DNA from: Thermotoga profunda AZM34c06
GTDB lineage: Bacteria; Thermotogota; Thermotogae; Thermotogales; DSM-5069
Reading direction: 5' to 3'
Length of the DNA stretch: 64,000 nt
Assembly: GCF_000828675.1 (NCBI RefSeq)
Contig: NZ_AP014510.1
Location: 1,817,413 to 1,881,412 of the forward strand
The notes below the pieces were generated by a model. That model did no database searches, was not told the DNA's origin, and was given only the letters and a program-made list of their open reading frames with translations. The stretch's first letter is position 1; each line of letters opens with the position of its first letter. The position numbers were made by a program, and so were the translations under genes. Below, piece after piece: positions 8,637 to 11,398 of this stretch.

Positions 8637-9392
8637 TTAATTATCTTTATAATAACTTTGATTTTCTAAGAGTTGTTCCTGTGGAACGTCTTTCAATTCT
8701 CTTGCTGGGATTCCAGCATACACTTTTTTAGGAGGCACATTTCTTGTTACAACAGCACCTGCAGCGATAAGGGCATCTTCACCAATTTCTATACCAGGTA
8801 AAATAGTTGCATTCGCTCCTATTCTTGCACCTTTTCGAATTGTTGGACCTTTGAAATATTTCTTTCTTTCTTCTGTTCGTCCAAGAAAGTTGTCGTTTGT
8901 AAAAGTGACCTCAGGGGCTATGAAACAGTAATCTTCGATTGTTGACATGGCAGTGATATATGCTTCTGTTTCTATCTTTACATATCTTCCTATCGTTGTT
9001 TTATTTTCAACGGCTACTCCTCTACCTATTACTGTATATTCTCCAATCACCACATCTTCTCGAATGCTGGCAAGATCTCCAACGAAAACATAGTCCTTCA
9101 AAGATGCGCCTCGATAGATAACACAATTTGCACCTATCGTCACATATTTTCCTATGATTAAAGCTGGAAGAGTTTTCTTTTCAGTAGTTGCTGATATAGT
9201 AGCTTTGAAGGGTTCCTTGCCCAAGATGGTATTATCTCCAATTATACAGCCTTCACCAACCACGGTATCTTTTTTGATCACCACGTTGTGTCCAACGGTC
9301 ACATTGCTATTTATAACTACACCATCTTCAATTACCACATTGTGTCCAAGGATTACATTTTCACCGATTTTCGCATTTGATGAAATATACAC
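8637..9392 (-). CDS. Left-handed beta-helix acyltransferase (WlbB/WbpD-like)
   Basis: About 251 residues made largely of hexapeptide repeats (IGENVILGHNVVIEDGV and so on), the hallmark of trimeric LpxA-like N- or O-acetyltransferases. NDNFLGRTEERKKYFKGP followed by IGANATILPGIEIGEDALIAAGAVVT is characteristic of amino-sugar N-acetyltransferases used in surface polysaccharide synthesis. The exact sugar substrate cannot be read. A TTG at 9410 opens the frame, but the best start is GTG 9390-9392, 8 bases after AGGAG (9401-9405). It stands alone on the minus strand, next to a pseudogene. Confidence 0.82.
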   Translation of the reverse strand: MYISSNAKIGENVILGHNVVIEDGVVINSNVTVGHNVVIKKDTVVGEGCIIGDNTILGKEPFKATISATTEKKTLPALIIGKYVTIGANCVIYRGASLKDYVFVGDLASIREDVVIGEYTVIGRGVAVENKTTIGRYVKIETEAYITAMSTIEDYCFIAPEVTFTNDNFLGRTEERKKYFKGPTIRKGARIGANATILPGIEIGEDALIAAGAVVTRNVPPKKVYAGIPARELKDVPQEQLLENQSYYKDN

Positions 9393-9577
9393 GCACATCA
9401 CTCCTGACAAGATGATAGCATAGATTGCATTGAAACGTTATGATTAACTCAACGTAACAATATTCGATAAACAAGCGAAAGACTCATATGGACCTAAAAA
9501 GATGACGATAAACATCAAAAAAATCATTAATGATGAGGAATTTTTTTAATTTTTGGGGTATGTAACTTCGTATATTA

Positions 9578-9583
9578 TATAAT
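9578..9583 (+). promoter_or_regulatory. -10 element upstream of the orphan transcript
   Basis: A perfect TATAAT at 9578-9583. The nearest -35-like hexamer is TTGGGG at 9553-9558, 19 bases away. A start near 9590 would open the candidate RNA described next. Confidence 0.5.
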
Positions 9584-9589
9584 GGAGAG

Positions 9590-9896
9590 TAATGCCTGGG
9601 CAGCTGTGTGCACACGGTAAAGTGTACATCGGGATAGGTCTAAGCTGTTGGAGATTTGTTGGTCAATTCAAGACAAAGAAAACTTTCCACAAAACAATAC
9701 CATTGGAAAAAATAAAAAACACTCAGATGATTATGAAAACTTGTATCAAATTATGTATTTAGAAAAGAGTTCAAAAAAATCTACAGGAAAAACCTTTTTG
9801 ATCGATGATGCGAGAAAAATATGTTTTAAAATCAACTCAATGAGAGTATCTAAAAAGAATAACTATAAAAGCGGTCCTTGAGTGACCGCTTTTTTG
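9590..9896 (+). ncRNA. Candidate orphan non-coding RNA
   Basis: A roughly 300-base unit between a TATAAT box and a strong terminator, with no convincing gene. The first ~80 bases are relatively G+C-rich and fold locally: GTGCACAC pairs with GTGTACAT across a GGTAAA loop with one mismatch, flanked by CAGCT (9601-9605) and AGCTG (9643-9647) which can pair. The remaining ~200 bases are A-rich. An open frame from TTG 9648 (77 residues, Lys/Asn-rich) stops inside the terminator loop at 9881 and resembles nothing I recognise. It is not tmRNA, SRP RNA or RNase P RNA by their hallmark motifs. It could be a regulatory RNA, an unusual riboswitch leader, or a decayed gene. Confidence 0.4.
9869..9896. 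terminator. Bidirectional Rho-independent terminator
   Basis: AAGCGGTC and GACCGCTT form an 8-bp stem with a 7-base loop, followed by a T run on the plus strand. Read on the minus strand the same stem is followed by TTTTA, so it can also end the deaminase transcript that stops at 9924. Confidence 0.85.
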
Positions 9897-9923
9897 TTGC
9901 TCAAAAGATTTTGAAAATTCATA

Positions 9924-10532
9924 TCAACAGTAATTTTTGTGAACCACTTCTATGAACTCATTTACATCAATTATTGAATTTACGAGCAAAGTGAAGATAC
10001 CTTCTAAAAGTAATTTTCTTGCCGTTAGATATTCCTTTTCATAATATTTTAAGTACATTTCCCAAAAACCACCCCTGTGTATATATTCTTTGTCCTCAAG
10101 AAAACCTATCAACACCGCTTGAACAATTTGAAGATCTTGATTATGTTGTATCTTCATTTTCTTTCGGCTGTAGTATTCCGTTGATCCATAAAGATTGAGC
10201 CCACCTGCCAAATAATCTTTCATCCCATAGACGATATTTCTAATACCAGACATGTATATGGCGCCGGCACACATCACGCATGGTTCCATGGAACAATAAA
10301 TTGTGTATTTGTTTATATGTTCTCCGTCGAGCTTTGCAAGTGCATTCAGTTCAGCATGAGCGATCGCATTGCCGTAGATTTCCCTGTGTCTACCAGAATC
10401 CTCGTTGATCATATTCCTGCCCCGAGAGATTATCTTTCCCATCTCATCAACTACGATTGAGCCTATCGGCAAACACCCTTTTCTCAAAGATTCCACACAC
10501 ATTTCCACAACGGATAACTCCAAATCGTTCAT
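9924..10532 (-). CDS. Zinc nucleoside/nucleobase deaminase (cytidine-deaminase fold)
   Basis: A 202-residue protein of the TadA/guanine-deaminase family. The zinc site is intact: HAE (about residue 59) and EPCVMCAG (~86-90). TadA proteins are usually ~150-160 residues, so this one has a C-terminal extension of ~45 residues (KYYEKEYLTARKLLLEG...). TadA makes inosine-34 in tRNA-Arg, but members of this fold also deaminate guanine or other bases, so the substrate is uncertain. The ATG follows AAGGAGTG with 5-base spacing. It is a single gene with its own promoter. Confidence 0.8.
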   Translation of the reverse strand: MNDLELSVVEMCVESLRKGCLPIGSIVVDEMGKIISRGRNMINEDSGRHREIYGNAIAHAELNALAKLDGEHINKYTIYCSMEPCVMCAGAIYMSGIRNIVYGMKDYLAGGLNLYGSTEYYSRKKMKIQHNQDLQIVQAVLIGFLEDKEYIHRGGFWEMYLKYYEKEYLTARKLLLEGIFTLLVNSIIDVNEFIEVVHKNYC

Positions 10533-10614: not shown

Positions 10615-10641
10615 GAAAAAAGTAAAAAGTAAATAGATAAA

Positions 10642-10787
10642 TGCTGAAAGCTAAGGGAACACCGGTGAAAGTCCGGGGCTGTCCAGCAACCGTGAGTGGG
10701 GACGAAAGCCACACAATTGCCACTGGTTGAAGCTGGGAAGGCGTGGCGAGTAGATTGATCCACAAGCCGGGAGACCTGCTTTGAGCA
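10642..10787 (+). promoter_or_regulatory. Cobalamin (adenosylcobalamin) riboswitch
   Basis: All core elements of the B12 riboswitch are readable in order: GGGAACACCGGTGAAAGTCC, GGGGCTGTCCAGCAACCGT, GTGGGGACGAAAGCCAC, GCCACTGG, GGGAAGGCG, AGTAGATTGATCCACAAGCC and the B12 box AGCCGGGAGACCTGC (10765-10779). P1 is formed by TGCTGAAAGC (10642-10651) and GCTTTGAGCA (10778-10787) with one mismatch. It sits directly upstream of cobO and a terminator, so cofactor binding should shut off corrinoid adenosylation gene expression. Confidence 0.96.
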
Positions 10788-10792
10788 GATTG

Positions 10793-10830
10793 TTTTTCCC
10801 GAAAACTTGGGATTTTTCGGGAAAAATTTT
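10793..10830 (+). terminator. Riboswitch-controlled terminator
   Basis: TTTTTCCCGAAAA and TTTTTCGGGAAAAA form a long perfect stem with a 7-base loop, followed by TTTTG. It lies 6 bases after P1 of the cobalamin riboswitch and 58 bases before cobO, which points to control by transcription termination. Confidence 0.85.
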
Positions 10831-10888
10831 GTTTAGTGTAAACTATCTGAGAGTGTCATTCACAAGATTTGTAAAGGGAGTGATCTCA

Positions 10889-11398
10889 ATGGGCTATGTT
10901 CATGTCTACACAGGTAATGGCAAGGGGAAAACAACGGCGGCATTTGGCCTTGCACTCAGGGCGGCATGTGCGGGTAAGAGTGTTTATATAGGTCAATTCA
11001 TAAAGGGGATGAAATACAGTGAACTTGATGTACCAAAATACATACCAAATATCATCGTTGAACAATTTGGTAGAGGTTGTTTCATCAAAGGCGCTCCTGC
11101 TCAGGAAGACATTGATGCCGCTAAGAATGGGTTTGAGAAGGTTTCAAAGTATATCTTAGATGGTACTTTCGATCTCATTATACTGGACGAAATCAATATC
11201 GCGGTATATCTTAAACTTCTCACAACAGATGAAGTGCTTCAAGTGTTGAAAAACAGAAGCGAACGATCCGAAATAGTTCTCACGGGTCGATATGCACCAA
11301 GAGAGTTTATCGATTATGCAGATCTGGTTTCAGAGATAGTAGAAGTGAAACACTATTACCAAAAAGGTGTACAGGCAAGAAAGGGAATAGAGTTTTAA
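10889..11398 (+). CDS. cobO: Cob(I)yrinic acid a,c-diamide adenosyltransferase
   Basis: A 169-residue CobA/CobO/BtuR-type ATP:corrinoid adenosyltransferase, which attaches the adenosyl group to reduced corrinoids. The P-loop GNGKGKTTAAFG opens the protein (residues ~8-20), with LIILDEIN as Walker B and LTGRYAPREFIDYADLVSE near the end. Homologs are usually ~170-200 residues. The frame is open to 10781 but that part is the riboswitch terminator; ATG 10889 is preceded by AAAGGGAG and is the right start. Control by the upstream B12 riboswitch supports the assignment. No other cobalamin gene is adjacent, so it may serve corrinoid salvage. Confidence 0.95.
   Translation: MGYVHVYTGNGKGKTTAAFGLALRAACAGKSVYIGQFIKGMKYSELDVPKYIPNIIVEQFGRGCFIKGAPAQEDIDAAKNGFEKVSKYILDGTFDLIILDEINIAVYLKLLTTDEVLQVLKNRSERSEIVLTGRYAPREFIDYADLVSEIVEVKHYYQKGVQARKGIEF

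Follow-up and report, generated by a model that had tools for sequence, protein, structure and literature searches.

A dispersed family of putative noncoding transcription units in Thermotoga profunda has a promoter in common with a sigma-like operon

The unit studied here occupies positions 9569-9896 (plus strand) of the window, i.e. the whole 64,000-nucleotide stretch of Thermotoga profunda DNA that was analysed, and lies between a divergent hexapeptide acyltransferase gene (8637-9410) and a convergent tadA-like deaminase gene (9924-10532). It opens with the promoter block CGTATATTATATAAT (9569-9583), which is near-invariant across all copies of the family described below and also precedes a sigma-like operon. 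The probable -10 hexamer is TATATT (9571-9576), with the TATAAT box at 9578-9583, already noticed in the first-pass annotation, as the alternative; this second hexamer could instead be used by the housekeeping sigma factor. From the -10 spacing, transcripts of the family are predicted to start at a GGA/GGG located at +16, which corresponds to a start near G9584 in the window unit. Downstream of it we found a first palindrome position, GCCTGGGC (9594-9601), imperfect in the window copy and identical in sequence in two relatives (G007 and G010), a second palindrome, CTGTGTGCACACGG (9604-9617), whose G007 version CCGTGTGCACACGG is a perfect 14-bp palindrome, and a conserved 3' motif, GTGTACATCGGGATAGGTCTAAGC (9622-9645), with ATAGGTCTA ranking among the best-conserved stretches of the noncoding copies. 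The part that belongs to the dispersed family is 9569-9645; it is followed by an A-rich body that is not conserved (9646-9866) and by an intrinsic terminator (9867-9896) consisting of a stem at 9867-9893 (10 pairs, 5 G-C) and a T run. The strong terminator, the G+C-rich 5' part and the A-rich body pointed out in the first-pass annotation were thus all present. Farther downstream there is a cobalamin riboswitch (10631-10797, plus strand; Rfam RF00174, 90.7 bits) with a downstream frame (10781-11398) whose sequence suggests a cob(I)alamin adenosyltransferase.

A covariance search of 9400-9950 returned no Rfam family at its gathering score, in agreement with the earlier view that the unit lies outside the known RNA families, and a permissive Rfam scan gave sub-threshold matches only, the best of which (AbsR25, 26.4 bits versus 47) rested on the terminator. 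The structured G+C-rich 5' end had also been taken as the signature of an RNA gene in a thermophile. This argument did not hold as one of stability, because the predicted folding was no stabler than that of shuffles, neither for 9585-9662 (MFE, z = -0.16) nor for the whole unit (z = -0.76). As far as sequence comparison goes, the true signal in the 5' part is its palindromy and conservation.

The unit was not the orphan it had been thought to be, since about 20 further noncoding copies were found in the same genome. The comparison covered the genome carrying the window (G000) and its relatives (G001-G010 and others), 103 Thermotogota genomes in all. A DNA search with 9550-9900 matched three relatives and a second G000 copy at query positions 20-94 only, this core being conserved in G007 and G010, and several more copies matched in the promoter part. 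A pattern search in which nothing but the promoter block and the 3' motif was specified detected 16 copies in G000 (8 per strand) and 6 more in four relatives, against zero in the reversed control. A sequence-only model built from 27 copies recovered 21 noncoding copies in G000 at E values below 2e-8 and approximately 4-12 copies in each of G001, G002, G003, G007, G008, G009 and G010; no convincing full-length match was obtained in the other 92 of the 103 genomes. These matches establish a dispersed family with a common layout, in which the promoter, CGTATAnTATATAATGG, hardly varies, the predicted transcript start carries one or two palindromes, and the 3' motif, CGTACATTGGnATAGGTCTAATC, is conserved. 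When the C of CGTATA (window 9569) is taken as +1, positions +1 to +15 are CGTATAnTATATAAT, and the palindromes are centred near +22/23 (the first, in most copies) and near +33/34 (the second, in many). In genus g3 the first promoter hexamer is better kept than the second one. All copies are intergenic, in every orientation and with no common neighbour, and a literature search found no description of such a dispersed family.

Most copies of the genus also bear a far dyad, e.g. CTTAG-N6-CTAAGTTC, starting at about -110, at a distance that is fixed even where the intervening sequence is unrelated. It was found at this fixed distance upstream of the noncoding copies and of the operon alike, with no occurrence in the reversed control. 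The window copy lacks it, as do L060 (G007), L003 (G010) and L053 and L059 (both in G003), and all five carry GTGTGCACAC, or an extended version of this palindrome. Mosaic stretches upstream and downstream (reaching, for example, -183 or +236) are common to the elements L044, L048, L049 and L093, suggesting recombination or gene conversion between them.

The palindromes differ from copy to copy (GGCGCC, CAGCGCTG, GGGTACCC, CAAGCTTG, GGAGCGCTCC, AGACGTCT, CACCCGGGTG and others), with 28 different longest palindromes in total, and at the first position most of the other copies have a perfect zero-loop palindrome of a different sequence. Counted over copies that are related and hence do not represent independent events, a perfect palindrome of at least 8 bp was present in 49 of the 56 distinct 22-nt starts (mean of shuffles 3.4, maximum 11), and in the set used for compensatory changes, those in the second palindrome included (13 in-register copies, the window copy not among them) 83.9% of the cells were paired and 8 of 11 pairs had changed on both sides, with a covariation score that was reached in 0 of 500 shuffles and a signal that vanished on a one-column slide. 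RNAalifold gave no structure on the mixed alignment because MAFFT had misregistered the palindromes; the in-register set then gave the signal. First palindromes were mostly perfect to the centre, and some second ones had G-U pairs or unpaired loops of 3-4 nt. At 70 C the folds of monomer RNA were weak and cofolding favoured dimers over monomers, in a run made without shuffled control and with sequences that, being palindromes, favour dimers by construction. The aligned copies show that the palindromes were kept self-complementary through changes on both sides.

Terminators within 420 nt downstream were predicted on the sense strand of 18 of the 41 copies and on the antisense strand of 4 (shuffles, 0.2 on average), while 23 of the 41 had none within this distance. 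The excess of sense over antisense terminators speaks for short transcripts, with predicted lengths of roughly 200-460 nt. L048 and L096, which belong to two different genomes, are followed by the same two strong terminator-like hairpins, GGTGGTACTGCCCC... and GGGGCTCTC....

The operon that has this promoter in common with the noncoding copies encodes a DUF1659 protein, a DUF2922 protein, a holin-like protein and a sigma-region-2 protein. A model built from noncoding copies only (R1) also matched, more weakly, the promoter of this operon at two sites in G000 and in G001, G002, G006 and G008, other genera being among the genomes with a match, and it matched directly upstream of DUF2922, by coordinates, in G013, G029, G031, G033 and G035; the latter matches were weak by score, and such weak operon-promoter matches outside the family (E 0.008-0.17) rest on position. 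DUF2922 was detected in 82 of the 103 Thermotogota genomes, and also in the T. maritima control. In Firmicutes, yvrJ is found in the same kind of operon as DUF1659/DUF2922. Our literature search met the two domains in one paper only, in passing. In G000 the operon (L263; 813186-814218 of the genome, minus strand) lies among surface-polysaccharide genes, and a second copy, near 830.7 kb, breaks off after DUF1659.

Sigma region 2 was found in 12 of 13 orthologues of the operon protein, and the sigma-like profile matched solved sigma factors at up to 3.5e-7, establishing the similarity; the holin match was weak (E 0.013-0.015, below the cut-off). In two loci of family f8 (L297 and L312) the sigma-like protein carries an additional helix-turn-helix at its C terminus, similar to region 4, so that proteins with region 2 only may be the derived form. 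Thermotoga-like genomes have a glucosaminidase gene (PF01832) after the holin-like and sigma-like genes (L313, L316, L318), and in L318 no sigma-like frame was seen between the holin-like gene and the glucosaminidase. The operon promoters, too, carry palindromes at the presumed start, with sequences of their own (TGGGAGCGCTCCCA, GACAGCGCTGTC, GGCTGCGCAGCC and TGAGTCGACTCA versus TGAGCCGGCTCA and TTGAAGCGCGCTTCAA). Taken alone, 17 of 28 of them had a palindrome of at least 10 bp (expected 4.8, maximum 11), a modest excess in a count that includes palindromes, some of the longest among them, not located at the transcript start. The 3' motif was not seen in the operon promoters read, and its complementarity to the operon mRNA was no better than that of shuffled motifs.

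These data together make it probable that 9569-9896 is a noncoding unit of about 310 nt, a member of the dispersed family, within an alternative-sigma regulon that includes the sigma-like operon. The promoter type of the noncoding members would also drive the DUF1659-DUF2922-holin-like-sigma-region-2 operon, and the sigma-region-2 protein, acting by itself or, as in SigO-RsoA of Bacillus, together with a region-4 partner, would direct RNA polymerase to these promoters, its own operon's included. Transcripts of the noncoding members would be self-complementary at the 5' end and would contact a target RNA or protein through a conserved single-stranded motif, CGUACAUUGGnAUAGGUCUAAUC. Against this reading, the window copy is of the subfamily that lacks the far dyad, has an imperfect first palindrome and is patchy in its position among relatives; the unremarkable stability of the 5' fold, the copies with no terminator and the weak operon-promoter matches count against it as well. 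The earlier proposal of an RNA gene outside the known families is partly supported, given the lack of an Rfam match, the conserved noncoding core, the compensatory changes, the terminators and the lack of a conserved protein; the isolation of the unit and its main argument, the stability of a G+C island, do not hold.

Alternatively, the family could represent mobile DNA resembling MITEs or REP elements, which carries a promoter by chance and copies itself into intergenic sites, the palindromes being part of its ends or of its folding, an explanation that we consider unlikely. Many G000 copies are near-identical, with up to ~190 bp in common and mosaic flanks, and these common flanks show, at the DNA level, that the element spread recently in this genome. 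The intergenic scatter in all orientations and an imperfect inverted similarity, seen by eye, between left and right ends point the same way, as does the patchy position: the window copy adjoins the same acyltransferase in G007 and G010, and G001-G006, G008 and G009 showed no element within 620 bp upstream of that gene (coordinates approximate for minus-strand and cut loci), a pattern for which locus loss and transfer are both possible. At the ruvC locus G001-G003 have no element, but the neighbouring gene differs there too, and no target-site duplication was recognised. However, three positions are common to different species or genera, with the core conserved in surroundings that are not; the palindromes change on both sides instead of decaying; the same promoter and palindrome precede a widespread operon; and some copies have unrelated sequences from -90 to -5 with the spacing still fixed. 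Both readings may hold together, in a functional unit that also spreads.

That the palindromes act as double-stranded or cruciform DNA, as operators or supercoiling sensors with an idle transcript, appears to us about as improbable as the mobile element. It would account for first palindromes that are mostly perfect and loopless right through the centre, a feature not required for an RNA hairpin, and for the weak monomer folds at 70 C, but the longest palindromes are too diverse for one DNA-binding protein, and the G-U pairs and unpaired loops of some second palindromes, the 3' motif kept ~30 nt further downstream and the bias of the terminators to the sense strand all argue against it. There is still less reason to regard the unit as an ordinary promoter or leader of the downstream region with no gene of its own: several copies do face a gene 200-700 bp downstream, but the next gene in the window, the tadA-like one, is convergent and has a terminator before it, other copies end near convergent genes and no downstream gene is common to them. 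A small protein is hardly credible. The 77-codon frame that had been proposed as the only coding option does exist (9648-9881, mostly in the A-rich body), but it has a TTG start, ends inside the terminator, has no Pfam match and is not conserved beyond the core, the part to which the DNA matches in relatives are confined; lacking a conserved frame, it was rejected as a gene.

The regulon reading can be extended, tentatively and with more doubt than belief, to an undescribed alternative-sigma system of Thermotogota, whose promoters would be distinguished by a transcript start that is free in sequence but self-complementary, this self-complementarity (e.g. as an RNA homodimer at growth temperature) being in itself the functional signal, and which would have expanded to some 4-21 noncoding RNA genes per genome in Pseudothermotoga-like genomes. 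If the regulon reading were right, a deep-branching thermophile phylum described with few sigma factors and few ncRNAs would have an unrecognised sigma-like regulator and its regulon. The question posed is why transcript starts stay palindromic through complete changes of sequence.

Multicopy sibling sRNAs under one regulator are known, such as the CiaR-controlled csRNAs of streptococci and LhrC of Listeria. The family resembles them in its several intergenic copies with the same promoter, a common motif and no protein, and differs in its ~21 copies, its self-complementary palindromes of changing sequence and the recent spread of some copies. Group V sigma factors and holins form modules such as TcdR-TcdE and UviA-UviB (for the holin side, PMC3369941, PMC6200909). 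A divergent sigma-like gene beside a holin-like gene is likewise found here, with a glucosaminidase beside the pair in Thermotoga-type genomes; in contrast, no toxin or bacteriocin gene was seen, the sigma-like protein has region 2 only in most members and the holin match is weak, below the cut-off. REP repeats with GTAG or CGTC tags, the latter reported in Thermotogae among other phyla (PMC3733652), and MITEs are also short, dispersed, intergenic and palindromic, whereas here a promoter block is shared with an operon, the architecture of ~190 bp is fixed and the palindromes vary in sequence; instead of a GTAG/CGTC tag with one constant imperfect palindrome of 20-40 bp, the alignments show a CGTAT promoter block. 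In the same phylum, the transcriptome of Thermotoga maritima, with mapped start sites and RNAs, comprises four sigma factors (RpoD, RpoE, SigH and FliA) and few putative ncRNAs, given as 12 in its abstract and 13 in its results, and the operon, the promoter and the palindromes are unmentioned in the accessible sections of that report (PMC3636130).

By analogy, and with no claim of membership, the nearest mechanistic relative seems to be SigO-RsoA of Bacillus subtilis, a split sigma factor with region 2 in RsoA, for which the accessible parts of the source describe no dispersed noncoding units or start-site palindromes (PMC8103513). The f8 orthologue with its C-terminal helix-turn-helix is a further difference. 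According to the same parts, SigO-RsoA drives its own operon, which its regulon includes (PMC8103513), and the sigma-like protein described here resembles it in having sigma region 2 without region 4, in a short separate protein.
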